Both the position numbers and the translations under genes were made by a program. Below are positions 1-15,400 of a DNA stretch of 64,000 bases, one piece after another. Origin of the DNA: Monosiga brevicollis MX1 (lineage: Eukaryota > Opisthokonta > Choanoflagellata > Craspedida > Salpingoecidae). The notes below the pieces were generated by a model. That model searched no databases and was not told where the DNA came from. It worked only from the letters and a program-made list of their open reading frames with translations. Location of the stretch: positions 34,579-98,578 of the forward strand of contig NW_001865047.1 of the NCBI RefSeq assembly GCF_000002865.3. The letters are read 5' to 3'. Position 1 is the first letter of the stretch. Every line of letters begins with the position of its first letter.

Positions 1-702
1 GCTGTGCGCGCATAGGCCCGCTGGGCCGTGTCCCCCGAGTGTTGAGCTTGAGTGTGGATCAGGCTGCCCAGGGCGCCGGTCGTCTCGGCCGACAGTCGGT
101 TAATGACAAATGTCGTCATCCAGAAGGTTGCGGCGTGTCGCCACGTGGCCACCCCCAGCTTTGGCCGATGCAGGTACGTGGTCATTTGTCGACGAAATGC
201 CGCATAGATGGTAGCTGGGCTGACCATCGTCTGCAGGGGCGCAATGTTGAAGAGCAGGTGGCTGTTGTTGTAGTGGTTTCGAGCGTCCCGGACCTCGCGT
301 CGCAAAGTCATCGTCTCGTCGTGGCTCATGTGGTCTTCATCCAGCTCGTCGTCGAGGAAATCTTCGTCGTCCTGCTCGGCATTGTGAATGCCATTCTCGT
401 CGTCGGGGGTTTTCAGGCTGCCCCGCTTTTGCAGCCAGCTGCTCAGCATGTGCTCCAGAGGCTTGCACAGCAGCAAATACATGAATATCAGCGTGCTGAT
501 TTCCTGGTCCATGTATCGAAAGGTGTGCTGTTCGTTCAGGGACAGCCAGTAGGTCTTGCTCACGCGGGTCAATATGGAGAGCTGCTTCTCGGCAAAAAAC
601 GCGGCTCGTTGCCGTCCCACGCCATTTTTATAGAACAGCCCTTGATACACAGAGGCTCGTGGCGGCAGACCTAGTCAAATTCAAACAGGCATGAGTGGCG
701 CG

Positions 703-735
<33 letters not shown>

Positions 736-1913
736 AGCCTGATTCCAATCGTACCTCCGGCAATGTGCGTGTAGATGAGGGCTAGCTCGTTGAACCTGCA
801 CACATATAGGAGCCATGTCTGCACCCTGTCCTCTCGAAAGGTCAGCTCGCCACTGGGCCCATGCTCCGTTTGGATAAACTCTTGCCGCAGACTCGGGGTC
901 TGGCCAATGTGATCAAACAGCGCGTTCTCGGCTGGACTGCCATGGCCCACCCACCAGTTCTTGACCCTGTTGGTCCAATCCTCCTTCAATCGCAGCCGCT
1001 CATAATCTTTCTCGTAATCTTTCCGCAGGCGTGAGTCCAGCAAGAGGTGCTTGTCCAATATTTCCGTCATGTCTTTGCGCATCTGCTCCAGCGCAGCCCC
1101 AAGCTCCTCCACATTGAGCTCAATGCCTCGACAGACAATGGTGCGCAGCGTCTCGTCCGTCACGTCGCCATCGGCTCGGATATCGACGTCGACCCCAGCC
1201 TGCCCCTCGGCCATGCTCGCTGTTCGTGCCATGCTCGTACGCTGGCTCAAGAAATGCACCAATCGCCTGGGCTGCATATACGGCCTGAACTCGTTAGCCA
1301 CTGACCACGACTCATTCTTGCCACGGCGAAGCAGAAACAATTTGAAAACGTACAGCAGTCCGGCGGGCGTCGTGGTCCACTGCCTGATGTCCTGCAGGAT
1401 GCCGCTTCCTTTGGACATGGCCATGCACAATAAGAAAACGTTGACAAAGTGCACCTTGTCGTTGTCAAAGAGGCTCAGCTCCACCTCCACCAGGGCCAGC
1501 CACAGGGACGTCAGGGGATCGACCAGCTCTTTCTTGGTCATTCCAGCGTCCAGGCCCGCCCTCAGAGCCACGGTGGCAGCAATTACCTCAGGGCCACGGC
1601 TGGCAAGCACCTGGCCCAGAAAGCTCGACGGATCGGGGGCTGGCATGGCCTCCAGCAGCAGCAAAAATTGGACCAGGCGTGTTCCAAGACTCAGGTACCT
1701 GCTGACGGTTTGCGGCTGTACTTGCCGCATGGGACGATGCTGATACTGCCCTTCGTTGTCGTCAAACAGACGCGTCACCGCAGCGGCGGCCAGGCCCTGA
1801 TCCGAGAGCTGCTCGTAGGCCGTCCAGAATAGCTCGTGCATGCCCGACTCGAGGAGTGCCGACGGGTTGCAGTGGCCCAGTTCGACCATGCGTTCTGGCT
1901 TCACGGTTGCCAT
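1..1913 (-). CDS. Recombinase-like protein resembling fungal telomere-linked-helicase N-terminal regions (3' end outside window)
   Basis: Two exons are visible: 1913-755 and 670 to the window edge, joined through an 84-bp intron (754-671, GT-AG) that holds a run of about 32 T on the coding strand. The phase-1 junction restores a Gly codon. The first 385 or so residues are helical with no named domain. The second exon carries a block around WRHAATFW followed by QHSGDTAQRAYAR. Fungal proteins encoded with RecQ-like telomere-linked helicases carry a similar WRH plus HS-x-x-TA-x-x-YA block, distantly like a tyrosine-recombinase C-terminal half. An acidic insert (DDEDFLDDELDED) lies between. I infer, but cannot see, that a helicase or catalytic module follows to the left. 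The start is the first ATG (1913) after an upstream stop. Other readings: an orphan DNA-binding protein or a decayed DNA element. The gene structure is fairly secure; the family call is weak. Confidence 0.55.
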
Positions 1914-2144: not shown

Positions 2145-5100
2145 CTAATTGGCCGTGTAGTAGACCACCAACTCAGGATAGATTTGCGTATTGTCAAACA
2201 AAATGATCTCGCGGCATTCCCCCGGCGGCGTGGCAATCACCGAGTCATATCTAAAGAGACACAGCAGGCGGGTCAATAGACAACCAAAGGCACTCTCTAG
2301 CACGCGAAACAACGGGTCATAGCTCAACGCACCGCTCGTTGTTAGGTGCATCAGGCAGGAGCTCAGGGGCCAGTGCACCGGGCGGAGGTGATGGATGAAC
2401 AAAGGCATGGCCCAACAGTGCTCGTGTGATGATGAGCATCCGCTCATCGCTCGGGCCAAGCCGATTCAACCGACTTGGCGGGTCGGTATATCGGTGGCTC
2501 TACATTATGATAAGCGCTCATGAGAATACGCAGTAGCGACAGCAACACAGGACAACCGCTCAATGAGCACACCTTGCTGGGATGGTCTGCCAAGTAAACA
2601 CCAAGACCGAATCGGTGTCCAGCGCTGCTGCCGGCAAAGCGATAGTCAAGGCCCAAGCGCACAATCTTGTCGCGCAACATTGCGTCAGGGGAGATGCCGT
2701 GGAGCAGCAGGCGCTCTTGACAGGATGCATCGCGAAGCAAGGCTGGACAGCCCGAAAACGCATCTACTGTGGCCGTTTGAAGCTGCGTGCAATGCTCCTG
2801 GTTCGTGATGCGGTGCAGCATCTCCCGTCGCTTGGCGCTGTAGCGTTCCCACAGCACGGGGTTTTGTACCCGCTCCACCCGCTGCACCTGAATGTTAGCT
2901 GGCCCTTGCCCATCAATGCTCAGCTGCTTCAGCAGCTCAGCAACCTAGTTGCACGGTACATCCGAATCAGACTTCATGCTCAAATAAGCATTGCATCAAC
3001 AACGAACGCACCTCTGGGATAAGCTCGGGTGAATTGCGCAAAACTTCAATGGCTGGCCCGGCATGGGCGGCTACAGGTCGTTCTGCAATCTGCCGGCCGC
3101 TCAATAGGCTCGGCCGTTGTTTCGGATCTGTTGCAAGCAAGGCGCGCGTTTCCTTGTACAGTTCGCTCGTCGAATCGCACATCTGCATCAGAGACGCCAA
3201 AGTGAGTTCCAGTCACACGAGAGGCGCGGTTGGTTCTTCGTTGTGGGTCAATAGGTATCGCACTATCACCGACCTCAGTAGCCAGATGCGGAAAGCTGTA
3301 GACACCATCTCCCGCTGATAAATTCCATGTGCATCGATTCACGACCTCATCGCCCCGTGACTGAGCAGGTGGCACCGTTTGTGGGAACATGTAGGTGTTG
3401 TAGACAACGCAGCCGAAGGAAAAGGCATCTTGTGCTGGACGCGCCCCCACTCGACCCATTCCAAATAGCACTTCGGGTGCCACATAGCCCGCCGTGCCCG
3501 ACGATGCAGTGGCCGTGCATGGTAGCATGGTGGCTTCAGCGGCGGCTTTGGCAATGTCAAAGTCCCCCAGCCGCACGACAGGTTGGTCCTCGTCACCGTC
3601 CAGCATGACATTGCTCAGCTTGACATCCCGATGCACCAGGCCCTTGCTATGCATAAACGCCAGGGCCGTGCGGAGCTGAGTCATCAGACTTGCAATCACG
3701 GTCGAGGTGGCCAGATGGTGCGCCCTACCGAGCCACTGCTGCAGATCCCCCTGGGTACACCATGGCTGCACCAAGTAGGCGCTGGGGTGGCCACTGTGTA
3801 CGTCCACGAGCGCGCCAAGGACCGGAATGATGTGAGGGTGCTCAAGCTGGCGCATGGCGCGCAGTTCGCGGAGAAACGTCCGACACTGATCTTGTTTGTG
3901 TTGCTCAGCAAGTGCATACTCCTTCACAGCCAAATCTTGCTCAGGCCGATTCGGCAGTGCTGCGCGGGCTTTGTACACCTTGTGATTCTGGTTGTATTGG
4001 AGAGACAGCTGGCCCAGGCTGGAAAGCGTCAAACCCTGGCCTACTTCGGTCATGGCCTCCAAGATCAGACTGGCTGGAAGGTCGGGACCAAGCACTGTGC
4101 GGAGCCGCGCTCCCAGCGTGCTCTGCTCAGGGAGCAAAAAGACCAGCAGCGCTGGGAAGTGTTGGTGCAGCAGCTGGGCGAGCTCTGCGACGTGGTCCAC
4201 GTGTGGCTGATTTGATAATTGTTGTCGTAAGGTATCCAGCCGCCCCTTCTTCTCTTGGAGCTTGTGTTCGAGGCTTGGACGCACATCTTCAGGCAGTTGT
4301 TGTAATACCGCACTGATAGTTTGAATCTCGGTCTGAAGTTTGGTTAGTTCCTCGTGGGCAGCAACCGATTCATCATCAACGCCTTGAGTCAAGCTGTTCA
4401 CATGACTCATGCACGAGGTCAACACGGAGAGCGTCATGGCCTGCCAGTCGATCATGTCTTGCATCTGCTGCGCCAGAGCTTGCGACTCGTGGTGCACAAA
4501 CGCCACGTACCAATCCTGATGCTCATAGTCTGGAGGTGGTTGCCACTGAGCAATTTGCTCGAGACCATTTTGCTCGAGCAGGCTCAGCTTCTCGTGAGCT
4601 TGGCACAGCTCCTCCCAGGCCTCCGGCAATGCCTCGGCTGGCGGCGGTGCACTCGCATCCACGCATTGCGCGCACTGCCGTAGCGTCTCCATGCGATGAA
4701 TCGTGTCGGTGGTTCCCGCTCTTGCCACGGCGCCCAGGGCATCGATCAAGGCCAGCACGAGGCGCTTGAGGTTGCTGTTGGCGCTGGTGAGCAGCTCTTG
4801 ACGCTTGGGTTCCACGCCGCTCAGAACGATGACTTTGCTCAGGGCCGCCGCTAGGTCGGTGGTTGGCGTTTTGGGCGCGATTACTGGCGTGGTGGGTGGA
4901 GCAGGGCACGCTGCCAGCACGGTCTGAAGTTCGAGAAGCACCGGCTGCAGCTCGAACCCAGTTGTGGCATCATGCAGCTCTTTCAGTATTGATTCTAGGT
5001 TGTCAGTGTTGGGGTCCAATTGCTTCAAGCGGTTGCTCAACGCTTCGGGCGCTTCCAGTGCCTGTTCAAGTGCGTTGAGAGCCTCGGTAATGATCGCCTG

Positions 5101-6952
5101 AAAGGCAGCCCAGTCAATGGCCGGAAACTCTGGTCGAGCTTTATCGATGGTCCTCTGTATATCCGCAATCACCGTTGCAAGATTGGGGTTTTGTTTGGCG
5201 GCACCGCTGATAAAGGCATCGAGGTGGGGGAGAGGATGGGTGTTGCGCGTGGGCAAGAGGGGCCTGAGCCAAGTGTCCACCGCCACCACAACAGAGGCCG
5301 TGGTCTAATGGAGGGTTGAGTGGTGCCATTGGTCGTGATTAGGTTGGATGAGGCCGTGGGGATTGGGGCAGTAAATGCATTGGGAAAGCAAGATGGGGGA
5401 GCAGGCTCACCTCGAGGGTGGGGGTGGTGGGCAGAGACGGCAGCCAGGCGGGAGGCGGTGCAGGTATGGGCGGAGCGAGGGATGCGGGTAGTTGTGATAG
5501 GCGAGCCTCGTGAGCAGCAAACACGGGCTCCAGCTTGTCGCCATGCCCGCATTGACGTCCGACATCGAGGGGCGTTTGACCACCCTGAGAACATGTGATT
5601 TGAGCGTGTGAGGTGGGCAGCGACGCGAGGGCTGAGTTGGGCGACGTACATTTGCTTTCTCAGAACAAAAGCAAGGTGACAATGCTTTAAAGTGTGCTTA
5701 AGACGCCAGGCGCGCGAGTGGTGTGCAAATAGAGCGGGCAGGTAGCAGGGGTCCGAAAGGAGGCGCGCTTGGAGAGAGAAAAAAATATAAAAGAAACGGC
5801 GCATGTGCCGGGTGCAAAAGTGAAGGCACGGCCACCGAAAGCCGCTTGGGCGTGCGAGAGAGGCAGAGGCGTGATGGCAAAGGGTGGAGTGGTGTGCCCG
5901 GATGGATCAGAAAAGGAGAGGACGGCAGGCGGAAGAGACCAGCGGGGCGCAGGGAGCATCGACAACGGGCAGACGCAAAGCGGGGAAGAAGAGGGATAGT
6001 GGGAAAGAAGAAAAGAAGCCAGGGGGGGAGAAAGGACGCGCACGGGTGGGTAGGGTGTAGCGGAGAGGAGGGACGGGGGCAAAGGCGACGGGCAGCGGGA
6101 GCAGGAGCAGCAGTCATAGGGGGGTAAAAGGGGGAAGAGAGAGGTACTGTACTGACGTTGGTCTTGGCTTTAGCATCAACACCGTGCTTCAACAGCATCT
6201 CCACCATCTTGACATGACCGTTATAGCAGGCCCTGTGCAGTGTTGTCCAGCCATGCTGTGGGATGATGCATCAGCATGACGTACAGCTCCAGCATCATCA
6301 TCATCATCATCATCAATATCATCATCATCATCATCATCATCATGGGGTACAGGTGTACCATCATAGGGGGGTAAAGGGGGGAAGAGGGAGGTACTGTACT
6401 AACCCTGGCCTTGGCTTTAGTATCAACACCGTGCTTCAACAGCATCTCCACCACCTTGGCATGACCCCTACCGCTGGCCCAGTGCAGTGGTGTATCGCCA
6501 TCCTGTGGGATGATGCATCAACATGACGTTCAGGTACAGCATCATCATCATCATGTGGTCCAGGTGCACCATCATAGGGGGGTAAAGCGGAGAAGAGGGA
6601 GGCACTGTACTGACGTTGTTCTTGGCTTCAGCATCAGCACCGTGCTTCAACAGCATCTCCACCACCTTGTCAAGACCGTATTGGCAGGCCCCGTGCAGTG
6701 GTGTTTCGCCACCATACTGTGGGACGATACAAACATGCAGGAGATGTCCCATGTTATACCATAACGTCACCCCATCCAGTGACATATTCTACCAATATCA
6801 CACAACATCATACCAAACAGCATACGTACCGTATCTTTGTATTGGGCAGCATTTCGTATACGTTGTTGGTCCCAACTGGTCAACAGCTGCAGCGCCTCTT
6901 GTGGATCTGATGAATCGCACGCATAGTACAGCTGCCTTCCGTCATCACTCAT
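2145..6952 (-). CDS. Ankyrin repeat - protein kinase - PARP catalytic domain fusion protein
   Basis: Ten exons keep one frame: 6952-6830, 6716-6615, 6502-6404, 6255-6157, 5584-5411, 5304-3274, 3182-3012, 2944-2573, 2499-2333, 2250-2145 (1147 residues). Residues 1-170 form ankyrin repeats, each 33-34-residue repeat one phase-0 exon (e.g. GGETPLHGACQYG). A helical, coiled-coil-prone stretch follows (about 205-620). The kinase spans about 624-905: Lys660 in LAVKEY, HRDVKLSN with Asp759, DFD (780-782) instead of DFG, APE 808-810 and a subdomain-XI Arg in DPKQRPS; the glycine loop is poor. The PARP catalytic domain fills the C-terminus (about 945-1147): His1015 in LLHGIS, Tyr1050 in FGLGVYLAD and Glu1127 in REIILFDN, the H-Y-E triad expected of PARPs able to make polymers. 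Tankyrases pair ankyrin repeats with PARP but have no kinase. The fusion is supported by continuous phase. The longest intron (6156-5585, 572 bp) is the least certain join. Confidence 0.85.
5700..6156. repeat. Purine-rich intron repeat shared with 9740-10040
   Basis: The large intron of the ankyrin-kinase-PARP gene (5585-6156) holds a purine-rich stretch with no exon I can support. The same blocks, in the same order, recur at about 9740-10040 inside the next ankyrin gene (for example GGCAGAGGCGTGATGGCAA against GGCAGAGGCGCGATGGCAA, and later GCAAAGCGGGGAAGAAGAG-like blocks). The two introns therefore descend from one ancestral intron. The protein-like readings of this stretch are low-complexity and are not taken as coding. 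Confidence 0.7.
6293..6342. repeat. ATC trinucleotide microsatellite in an ankyrin-gene intron
   Basis: An almost pure (ATC)n tract lies in the intron between two ankyrin exons of the kinase-PARP gene. A shorter version (about 6540-6555) sits at the same place in the neighbouring intron, so the exon and its intron were duplicated together and the tract then expanded in one copy. Confidence 0.85.
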
Positions 6953-9088: not shown

Positions 9089-10161
9089 TTAATTCGTAGG
9101 TGCAGCTTGATTGGCGGCCGTTAGAGCAGCCACGCGGTCACCAAGGGTTTGTAGATCTCGGATATTGAACAATTGAGGATCCACGCGCCAGCCGACGCTA
9201 CAGAGAACAGCAGCAGCACACCGCCACCGTCTGACCTGCTCCGCATGAAGCAAGCCTTGAACTGGCGCCATGTTGAAAAGTCTGATGAGAACAAGTCAAT
9301 GCGAACAATGACATGGGAATCAGGTTCGCACCATTGGGATTTGAAGTTTGGTAGGAGCAAGGGGCACGGCTTGCGCGCAATAGCTCTGCAACCAGCTGTA
9401 ACGTGACACAGATTCATCGGTAAGCCAGCTTGCCTCTGCAACCAGGACCACAAATAAAAAAAGAAAGGCCCACCTCCAGCTCGATGCGAGCCTTGCAAAG
9501 CAGCAGATTCAAGGGTCGTGCACCCAGCTACCACAGCAGATCATCAGGCATCAGTCGCAGGTGCAGCAGAACAGCGAGAAGTACGGCATCGCGGTGAACA
9601 GCTTACACGATCTCTCACATCCGGATCGGCACCGTGCCGCAAGAGTTTGTGGATGCTCTCTCTGGCAGAGAAGGGAGCGCAGGCTAGATGGAGTGGCGTT
9701 TGGCCGCGCTAATTATGATCAATTTTTGGAAACATGAGGCATGTTTTCGTTTTTTTTTTGGAAGCGGGCGTGGGTGGGTGGGAGTGAGCGTCGAATGTGC
9801 CGGGGTAAAGCTAAAGAAACGCCCACGGAAAGCCGTTTGAACGCGCGAGGGAGGCAGAGGCGCGATGGCAAGAGATGGGGTAGTGCTCGGTTTCAAGTCA
9901 CAACATCAAGAAAAAGGAGAGCGAGGACGGTGGGCGGAAGCGACCAGCAAGAAAAAGGGCGGGGGGCATGGAGCACCGACAAAGCGCGGACGCAAAACGG
10001 GGGAAGAAGAGGGATGGCGGGAAAGAAGAAAAAAAGCCAGCACTTTTGTATTGGGCAGCACGTCGAATACGTTGTTGGTCCCAACTGGTCAACAGCTGCA
10101 GCGCCTCTTGTGGATCTGATGAACGACATGCATTGAACAGCTGCTCCCCATCAGCACCCAT
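9089..10161 (-). CDS. Short ankyrin-repeat gene, paralogue of the kinase-PARP gene's 5' part (possibly decayed)
   Basis: Exon 1 (10161 to about 10045) encodes a near copy of the first exon of the kinase-PARP gene (SSDPQEALQLLTSWDQQRIR). Further exons keep frame: 9708-9607 (RGQTPLHLAC, HGADPDVRD), 9527-9474, 9395-9332 (LVAELLRASRAP) and 9261-9089, ending in a tail with SVGWRVDP. The last two exons match the end of the third ankyrin gene, including a 64-nt phase-1 exon in both. The trouble is the exit from exon 1. After QYK the sequence jumps straight into DNA homologous to the big intron of the first gene, and no phase-0 GT donor is available before a stop. This looks like an internal deletion that removed several ankyrin exons. 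It is either a recent pseudogene or a gene with an unrecognised donor. Confidence 0.55.
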
Positions 10162-12409: not shown

Positions 12410-15400
12410 TTAGGCTCGAAAGCATCGCGTGAGGATAGAATGCAAATCGTGAAACGCACAGTCCTCAAAGGCATTTGGCTCCATGCGCCATCCAGCACTA
12501 AAGAGGATACCCAGTGATGCCTTGCAACGCCTGTTTTTCTCGGCCAAAAGAACGGCTTGGGCTATCGTCAATCGATACCGTCGTGAGGAAAACACATAGC
12601 ACGAGCGCGGACAAGTGCTATCCCACCTTCTGGATTGGAGCTGTGGTACGTGCCGGGCTTGCGACTGGCACAAAGCAATCTGATGATCAACTAAATAAGG
12701 TTGAAAACAGAAGCATTCAATAAGTGAGACAGGCCATTGGGAATGAGGCCTAGTTGTTGTATCTCTAACCTGCTGATTAGTCTGCGGGCGACTGAGTTGA
12801 TAGCTGAGTGGGCTTTGATTTGTCTAAGATGTCAAATAGCATGGCTGTAAGTGAGACTAATTGACTTAAAGAAGATGAGCGAAAAGCAACATGATCCATC
12901 ACAAACGCTTTTAAAGCGCGGGTCAGAAAGTAGGCTGATCAAGCACGTTTGGTGCCACTGGAAGCAGCTTGCGACAAATGAGCAAAAGAAGGCTGTGGTT
13001 TTCAACTCGTATCCAAGTTGTTGCGGGCTAACCTCGTTCAGTGCATCCGCATCTACACCATGATTCAGAAGCATGTCCACAATAGCCAGGTGCTCAGACT
13101 GTGAAGCAACATGAAGTGCAGCCACCATTTCCTGTCAAGTCGCCCAAATCGAAATATCCACTTCTGTGAGCCTCGTTCTCAAGCATATCCACACGCAATG
13201 CCCAAAAGGGTCTGCTTGAAGGAAAAGGGTACAGCTCAAGGGCACATGCGTACGTACGAAAAAAAAGAGTATTCAGGTAAAACTTACCTTGCTATGAGCC
13301 TTCAAGCCAGCGTCATGCGTTAAGAGCATCTCCACCACCTCGGTACGACCATCAGAGCATGCCTTGTGCAATAGTGAACAGCCAAACTTTGTGGCCGATT
13401 GAATGCAACCAACAGCATAACGAAACATAGTTTGAGACATCCAAGTACACCATGGTCGGCTAGGCTGGCTGTTTCAAACACGAAGTGTGTTTGAAAAAGA
13501 TAAAGGCCGACGGACCTGGTCTCTGGCGACAATATCAGCCCCTTTCTTCATCAGCACCTCCAGCATTCCCACGTGGTTATAAACATAAGCACAGCACAGT
13601 GGCGTGCAACCAAGCTGAAGACGAAATGCCGTCGTGGTCGCCGGAAAGCACACGCGCACAGCCTGGTCAGTTGTACGACTGTCGCGCAAAAAGAATACAC
13701 ATGAAAAAAACCGAGATATAGCTAACGTTGCTTTTGGCTTCAATGTCGGCGCCATGCTTCAGCAGGGTCTCTGCCACCTTCACGTGATTCTTATCGGCAG
13801 CCACATGCAACGGCGTCATGCCAAACTGTGGGGTGGCTTGCATGCATCAGCAACGTGTCACAAGCGTACATCATAGTCAGATGTACAGGCCCACGCACTC
13901 AAACGCAAGAGCAGGACACAGAGAATTGCTAACTAGCCTCATTCTTGGCATCAATATCAGCGCCACGGTTCAGCAGGGTCTCTGCTACCTCTACGTGATT
14001 CCTCAGGCAAGCCTCGTGCAATGGCGTGTAGCCATACTAAGGAATTTAGCATTTTTGTCAGTTCTACAGACTGGCACACTCAAATCCCACTCAATAAAAA
14101 GAAGCAGAAAAATAGTGTCTTGCCTCCTCCCTGGTGTCGATATCAGCGCCATGCTTCAGCAAGGTCTCTGCGACCTCAACGAGATTATTTATGCAAGCCT
14201 GGTGCAACGGCGTGAAGCCATACTAAGGAAGATAGCATTCAGTTAGGTTGTACACGCTGGCGCACTCAAAACGCACCTGCGGACCTGCGGACCTGTGGAA
14301 AGAAACAGAGAAATGCTGACTTGCCTTATTCCTGGCTTCAATATCAGCGCCTTGCTTCAGCAGGATTTCTACCAGATCCACTTGATTATGTAAGCAAGCG
14401 TAGTACAATGGCGTGTTGTCATTCTGAGGGATTCAGCAAGACACAACACACCACGCATGTACAGCCTTGTTAGTTTCACAGTCTGGCGTACTCAAAACAC
14501 ACCCAACAGAGCAAAACACAGTGAAGCGCCAACTAACGTTGTTCTTGGCTTCAATGTTAGCGCCATGCTTCAGCAAGGTCTCTGCCACCTCAACGTGATT
14601 CCTATTGGCAGCCACATACAACGGCGTCATCACCAAACTGTGGAGTGGCTTGCATGCACCAGACATGTATCACAAGCGTACATCATGGTCAGATGTACAG
14701 GCCCACGCACTCAAACGCAAGAGCAGGACACAGAGAATTGCTAACTAGCCTCATTCTTGGCATCAATATCAGCGCCACGGTTCAGCAGGGTCTCTGCTAC
14801 CTCTACGTGATTCCTCAGGCAAGCCTCGTGCAATGGCGTGTAGCCATACTAAGGAATTTAGCATTTTTGTCAGTTCTACAGACTGGCACACTCAAATCCC
14901 ACTCAATAAAAAGAAGCAGAAAAATAGTGTCTTGCCTCCTCCCTGGTGTCGATATCAGCGCCATGCTTCAGCAAGGTCTCTGCGACCTCAACGAGATTAT
15001 TTATGCAAGCCTGGTGCAACGGCGTGAAGCCATACTAAGGAAGATAGCATTCAGTTAGGTTGTACACGCTGGCGCACTCAAAACGCACCTGCGGACCTGC
15101 GGACCTGTGGAAAGAAACAGAGAAATGCTGACTTGCCTTATTCCTGGCTTCAATATCAGCGCCTTGCTTCAGCAGGATTTCTACCAGATCCACTTGATTA
15201 TGTAAGCAAGCGTAGTACAATGGCGTGTTGTCATTCTGAGGGATTCAGCAAGACACAACACACCATGCATGAACAGCCTGGTCAGTTGCACATGCTGGCG
15301 TACATGAAATGATAACATTATACTTTTAGCAGCAACAAAGAAGGGCAAACTTGCCTCGTCCTTGTTCTCGATATTAGCGCCATGCTTCAGCGACATGGCC

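Follow-up and report, generated by a model that had tools for sequence, protein, structure and literature searches.

Tankyrases (PARP5a/5b, PARP clade 4) carry ankyrin repeats at the N terminus and a PARP domain of the H-Y-E type at the C terminus. The ankyrin-TKL kinases of protists and plants place ankyrin repeats ahead of a kinase, and one Phytophthora kinase has 15 of them (PMC3019232). Ankyrin repeats and PARP also share one chain in the clade 1 proteins ADPRT3 of Dictyostelium and PME-5 of C. elegans (PMC2964712, PMC4245714). Here we describe a gene of the choanoflagellate Monosiga brevicollis MX1 that is predicted to combine all three, ankyrin repeats, kinase and PARP, in a single protein. 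It lies at 6952-2145 on the minus strand of a 64,000-nucleotide (nt) stretch, called the window below (assembly GCF_000002865.3, contig NW_001865047.1, positions 34,579 to 98,578). Two results go beyond the initial annotation of this stretch: the gene does not stand alone but has paralogues scattered over the genome, in a family of about 45, and the ankyrin face of the family is hypervariable. With moderate confidence, we consider a single-protein ankyrin-kinase-PARP family that acts as a recognition family to be the best overall explanation.

The window gene has ten exons that form a single frame of 1147 amino acids (aa). All its introns are GT-AG, and all are in phase 0 except the last, which is in phase 2. 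A mechanical search of GT and AG choices at the nine junctions gave 16 open chains of 1112 to 1150 aa; the 1147-residue model was among them, and the domains were identical in all. The protein opens with ankyrin repeats, continues through about 410 aa in which no known domain was recognised, and ends with the kinase followed by the PARP domain. Pfam placed each of the three domains above its cut-off: Ank_2 (E value 8.4e-26, match starting at aa 8), Pkinase (2.7e-36, aa 651-902) and PARP (1.8e-9, aa 947-1065, 37.8 bits against a cut-off of 26.7). The initial annotation had described ten exons in one reading frame, a kinase with Lys, HRD and APE elements, and a C-terminal PARP domain with the full H-Y-E triad, and each of these was recovered. 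The kinase elements are Lys660 (in LAVKEY, 3922-3924, minus strand as for all positions in this gene), HRD 757-759 (3625-3633) and APE 808-810 (3472-3480). The PARP triad comprises His1015 (2701-2699), Tyr1050 (2596-2594) and Glu1127 (2210-2208). The union of the three domains in one predicted gene, as first observed, is confirmed.

To compare paralogues, we made spliced alignments of window aa 200-1147 with 17 fetched loci. Seven further fetched PARP loci (L009, L010, L012, L016, L024, L031 and L032) stayed unaligned, since the window protein matched them in neither its kinase nor its PARP part. The introns at aa 877 (phase 0), 934 (phase 0) and 1113 (phase 2) were found in 17 of 17 loci; the intron at aa 1058 was found in 14 and was placed at 1065-1067 in the other three. 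The aligned loci contained no internal stops and one frameshift (L026). Across the middle region, L018 and L029 aligned poorly, L017 had an extra intron, and L019 had a sequence gap. Retention of the intron before aa 877 or aa 934 would break the frame or add a stop in all 18 sequences (the window plus the 17 loci); in the window gene, the kinase/PARP intron is 67 nt long (2945-3011). On the N-terminal side, introns near aa 142 and at 200 link the ankyrin exons to the middle region in 13 of the 14 loci compared, which did not include L018, L019 and L029. The first of these introns lies at 141 in L014 and at 143 in L017, and the fourteenth locus, L026, has a sequence gap. Ankyrin matches occur in 16 of the 17 loci; they flank the kinase on both sides in L018 and are absent from L019, which has a sequence gap. 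Because intron positions, frame and kinase-PARP adjacency are conserved across paralogues, the earlier placement of all three domains in one chain is strongly supported, as a prediction from genomic sequence, and a single chain is very probable.

The initial annotation had compared the protein with tankyrases. The ankyrin repeats and the C-terminal PARP are indeed common to both, and the likeness is a resemblance, not a membership. Pfam, reporting 20 families at E values up to 1, detected no SAM domain in the window protein; the other absences given below were judged in the same search. Ankyrin repeats and PARP are set about 700 aa apart by the middle region and the kinase, and the gene has three whole one-exon repeats, whereas the accessible texts give tankyrases five clusters. 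Among PDB sequences, compared without a tree, the window PARP is nearest to PARP12 (3.2e-8) and PARP15 (5.7e-7), followed by PARP14 and tankyrase-2 (2.6e-5). With no SAM domain and this ranking, we rejected tankyrase membership. The PARP12 and PARP15 matches point to PARP clade 3, whose animal members mostly lack the catalytic Glu. The window protein differs from that clade in having no detected macro, WWE or zinc finger domain, in carrying a kinase, and in having Glu1127 where PARP12 has Ile. With His, Tyr and Glu in place, it belongs with the H-Y-E type of the PARP (ARTD) superfamily.

The kinase has the Lys, Glu, HRD Asp, Asn, DFG Asp and APE of eukaryotic protein kinases, with DFG reading DFD, and we take its HRDVKLSN to be a serine/threonine form. 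Its best PDB matches are mixed (TYK2, FAK, ULK1 and StkP, as sequence matches without a tree). Matches to the exon-6 protein came from 34 PADLOC families; the 25 listed all fall in its kinase part, and we take them as general kinase likeness. For the ankyrin-TKL kinases, the main text of PMC3019232 names no PARP. The clade 1 ankyrin PARPs are described with WGR and PRD domains, and in the accessible text no kinase is named for them (PMC2964712, PMC4245714). Ankyrin repeats together with PARP have already been noted in M. brevicollis, with several independent origins and, in the portions available, without mention of a kinase (Perina 2014, PMC4245714); in the available text of Citarelli 2010 (PMC2964712), the word "kinase" is confined to the reference list. 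We found no account of an ankyrin-kinase-PARP family in the literature searched, which was mostly without subscription papers and without preprints, and the family may be described elsewhere. The predicted proteins of the M. brevicollis genome have been public since 2008. One locus, L009 (G000:C53:839400-848500), has ankyrin and PARP matches and none to the middle region or kinase; it may be the ankyrin-PARP protein of the literature.

The catalytic residues of both enzymes are well conserved. Of the 18 sequences, 16 retain the full set of kinase residues Lys660, Glu679, Asp759, Asn764 and Asp780, and all 18 retain the PARP triad. The third DFG residue is Asp in 17 of 18 (DFD 780-782 in the window, 3556-3564) and Glu in L018, and APE reads PPE in L020. 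The median ratio of nonsynonymous to synonymous divergence (dN/dS) was 0.137 in the kinase (60 pairs), 0.173 in PARP (39 pairs) and 0.269 in the middle region (42 pairs). These are pairwise values from 15 of the 18 sequences (L018, L026 and L029 excluded), for pairs with dS between 0.02 and 1. Both enzyme domains are under purifying selection. We predict from these sequences that the kinase and the PARP are probably both active, in which case phosphorylation and ADP-ribosylation might be coupled in one enzyme.

The species assignment is borne out by the Munc18 gene of this genome, one exon of which agrees with PDB chain 2xhe_A (UNC18, from Monosiga brevicollis) at 46 of 47 residues (85.7 bits, versus 50.8 for the next chain). 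A search of the genome (39.5 megabases, 57 contigs) with the middle-kinase exon, exon 6, gave 70 matches that resolved into 50 loci on 27 contigs. The merging used 57 of the 70 exon-6 rows, 13 weak kinase-like rows being excluded, and 53 of the 205 PARP-exon matches. Among the matches listed, a PARP exon follows on the same strand within 1.5 kilobases (kb) behind 45 of the 50 loci. The remaining five match only to query positions 235-540 of 669 and therefore stop before the kinase end. L028 (G000:C56:11100-20900) has two first exons, three detected ankyrin exons after each, and a single middle-kinase-PARP part.

We then examined the ankyrin repeats, which occupy one phase-0 exon each. A scan that counts only exact 99-nt repeats between AG and GT/GC found 94 of them, 0 to 12 per scanned sequence, with none in L019, L021, L023 and L026. 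Entropy over the 94 repeats exceeded 3 bits at positions 1, 3, 8, 11, 12 and 33 and was low at framework positions. Ankyrin repeats in general are expected to show high entropy at these surface positions, and for that reason we compared nonsynonymous with synonymous change. As the binding face, we used positions 33, 1, 3, 11 and 12, which we take to be those varied in designed ankyrin proteins. This set was fixed after the entropy table was known, and it excluded position 24, which is partly varied in designed proteins and changes little here. The tests covered 80 of the 94 repeats, 10 belonging to another ankyrin gene of the window and four to L018 being excluded, and 77 after duplicate removal in the exon-identity test.

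The first comparison took 14 disjoint pairs whose flanking introns were at least 75% identical; here nonsynonymous difference was 0.49 at binding-face codons versus 0.095 at the remaining codons. Synonymous difference over the whole exon was 0.14 in these pairs, and their flanking introns differed by 0.10, so the binding face exceeded the exon synonymous value 3.6-fold. In 20 disjoint pairs with exon identity of at least 80%, nonsynonymous difference at the binding face was 0.298 versus 0.098. Of 237,336 possible sets of five positions, only nine, counting the chosen one, reached the mean change of the chosen set in those 20 pairs. These results are good but not final evidence of diversifying selection on the ankyrin face.

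The same pattern could arise without diversifying selection, from relaxed constraint combined with gene conversion that evens out the introns and the framework codons, an account that we consider unlikely. Several comparisons speak for it or count against selection. Synonymous difference is itself raised within the binding-face codons, to 0.31 versus 0.50 nonsynonymous, so the excess there is just 1.6-fold (p 0.04, 15 pairs). In the 10 closest pairs the values are 0.44 versus 0.30 (p 0.26), and over all pairs, with no similarity limit, they are nearly equal (0.598 versus 0.558). Nine of the 15 disjoint pairs lie within a single locus, five of them in L013, and in eight disjoint pairs with exon identity of at least 90% the binding-face contrast shrinks to 0.100 versus 0.056. 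Moreover, dS is unequal between domains in two pairs of members: 0.41 in the middle region versus 0.10 in PARP for the window gene and L013, and 0.13 in the middle region versus 0.03 in the kinase for L022 and L023. Such inequality points to conversion between genes or to exchanged domains. However, conversion would homogenise the variable codons as well unless selection holds them different, and the scarcity of five-position sets that match the designed-ankyrin positions also argues against this account.

A variable repeat array, a constant signalling part, many dispersed copies and conserved enzymes together give the pattern of a recognition repertoire. NLRs and similar proteins are repertoire-type intracellular immune receptors, and the present family would work alike in its variable repeats, conserved signalling part and dispersed copies. 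It differs from them in that the window protein has no detected NACHT/NB-ARC ATPase or LRR, and in that its output enzymes are a kinase joined to a PARP. A role as recognition receptors is plausible, if rather uncertain. We infer the cellular location, ligand binding, activation order, activity and recognition or immune role of these proteins. In this scenario, the ankyrin array would bind a ligand that differs between members, and binding would free or cluster the middle region, which is presumably helical. The kinase would then be activated, probably by neighbours in trans, and PARP would afterwards modify its own protein or a nearby target. The output could be a defence or stress signal, as in other receptor families that join repeats to enzymes. 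More tentatively, the family may be about 45 recognition receptors of an undescribed kind, in which arrays of exchangeable one-exon ankyrin repeats, diversified at their binding face, and a presumed helical switch let one recognition event produce both modifications. Two parallels could, by analogy, point to an immune role. Several primate PARP genes evolve fast, and this has been interpreted as the outcome of conflict with viruses (PMC4038475); in animals, proteins that combine ankyrin repeats with effector domains have been proposed as sensors of invaders (PMC8195603).

Alternatively, the protein might be a tankyrase-like targeting scaffold, whose ankyrin array selects endogenous substrates for the kinase and PARP in housekeeping signalling. 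The repeat variation would then reflect substrate choice, not defence. Ankyrin clusters pick substrates in tankyrases, according to the text available, and the strong constraint on the catalytic domains is in keeping with a scaffold. However, the roughly 45 copies, the hypervariable faces, the uneven numbers of repeat exons and the enrichment at contig ends fit a recognition repertoire better, and we doubt the scaffold account.

The recognition reading also has points against it in the proteins themselves. Any tie between the family and immunity is indirect. With a poor glycine-rich loop and DFG reading DFD, it is uncertain that the kinase is active. Asp780 is lost in L029, which has Ala there, and the distant member L018 (G000:C37:10500-20300) has a degenerate kinase (HGH, GFE) beside an intact PARP triad. 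No recognised domain was found in the middle region of about 410 aa, for which the best PDB profile match had an E value of 0.0081, to a 78-residue chain; Pfam gave weak, scattered matches over 12 members, the best at 0.00057 in one of the 12. A single-sequence fold of this region was mostly helix, but its mean predicted local distance difference test score of 41.7 makes it unusable. Finally, in four of 14 loci (L011, L015, L022 and L023) the aligner placed a frameshift in the variable hinge before aa 200, perhaps from differences in hinge length.

It is very unlikely that these genes are a subtelomeric repeat family, spread by recombination, largely decaying and without a role in the organism. 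Of the 50 family loci, 37 are on contigs of known length, and 17 of these 37 are no more than 60 kb from an end, in a zone that holds 12.6% of that sequence; a contig end may, however, also mark a place where repeats interrupted the assembly. Some loci carry stops or truncations, and an adjoining gene family also lies near contig ends. On the other hand, the dN/dS medians of 0.14-0.17 in both enzymes, in pairs with a median dS near 0.8, and the absence of stops in the 17 compared loci argue against decay. The adjoining gene, at 681-1913 (minus strand), has 15 relatives with 64-93% identity over most of the gene. Six relatives are on contigs of known length, all of them no more than about 13 kb from an end, and a further three are found in the first 30 kb of their contigs. 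The adjoining gene, with 3-650 (minus strand) included, has no Pfam domain over the cut-off and probably belongs to a subtelomeric gene family. We rejected a viral or prokaryotic origin of the ankyrin-kinase-PARP family: the exon-6 protein had no relatives in viral contigs, and the PARP-exon profile had none in viral contigs or the prokaryote genome collection, in scans that were seeded with short conserved peptides and overlook remote homologues.

The weakest alternative, a model that fuses two or three adjacent genes with kinase and PARP as separate products, would draw on the derivation of the gene models from genomic DNA, which does count against a single chain, on an extra kinase-end and PARP piece without the remainder behind a member on C9, and on five further PARP pieces about 2 kb behind other members among the matches listed, yet it is highly improbable, given that all 45 merged loci matching to the kinase end (at least query position 648 of 669) have PARP behind them, that the conserved phase-0 introns before aa 934 are 64-120 nt long and leave little room for a promoter, and that no PARP exon opens with ATG (0 of 18). 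With frame and introns conserved, we rejected the two-gene reading. The piece on C9, at 2246-3206 of L037 (G000:C9:9345-10305), lies about 2 kb behind a complete member and includes the kinase-end exon; inspection by eye places remnants of the adjoining subtelomeric gene in the space separating the two. The other second PARP pieces are at C14:166868, C7:96516, C9:44726, C9:104117 and C9:76296.

The exons of the window gene are as follows. Exon 1 (6830-6952) begins with the ATG at 6952 and encodes the N-terminal part; a similar first exon occurs in seven of the 17 fetched paralogous loci. Exons 2 (6615-6716), 3 (6404-6502) and 4 (6157-6255) encode one ankyrin repeat each, of 34, 33 and 33 codons. 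Exon 5 (5411-5584) holds a final partial ankyrin repeat and a proline-rich hinge (aa 142-199), and exon 6 (3274-5304) holds the middle region (aa 200 to about 612) together with the larger part of the kinase, up to aa 876. The end of the kinase C-lobe and a linker (aa 877-933) are in exon 7 (3012-3182). PARP occupies exon 8 (2573-2944; its first half, aa 934-1057, with His1015 and Tyr1050), exon 9 (2333-2499) and exon 10 (2145-2250), which encodes the C terminus with Glu1127 and the stop. The first exon recurs 3 kb upstream, at 10045-10161 (minus strand), in a copy that covers aa 1-39 with 82% identity and may be an alternative start or a relic; no 99-nt ankyrin exon was found between it and the gene. 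The other ankyrin gene of the window, at 13131-15235 (minus strand), has ten detected repeats. Three of these occur twice with identical protein, 812 base pairs apart, and are likely a recent internal duplication.

If expressed as predicted, the family would place two major protein-modifying enzymes in one molecule, in about 45 copies, in an organism closely related to animals. Should the ankyrin diversity prove to be selected, these genes would offer a candidate, defined at the genetic level, for the means by which a single-celled bacterivore discriminates microbes or viruses outside the NLR and Toll families. In that case, whether repertoire-type immunity existed before animals would become a directly testable question.

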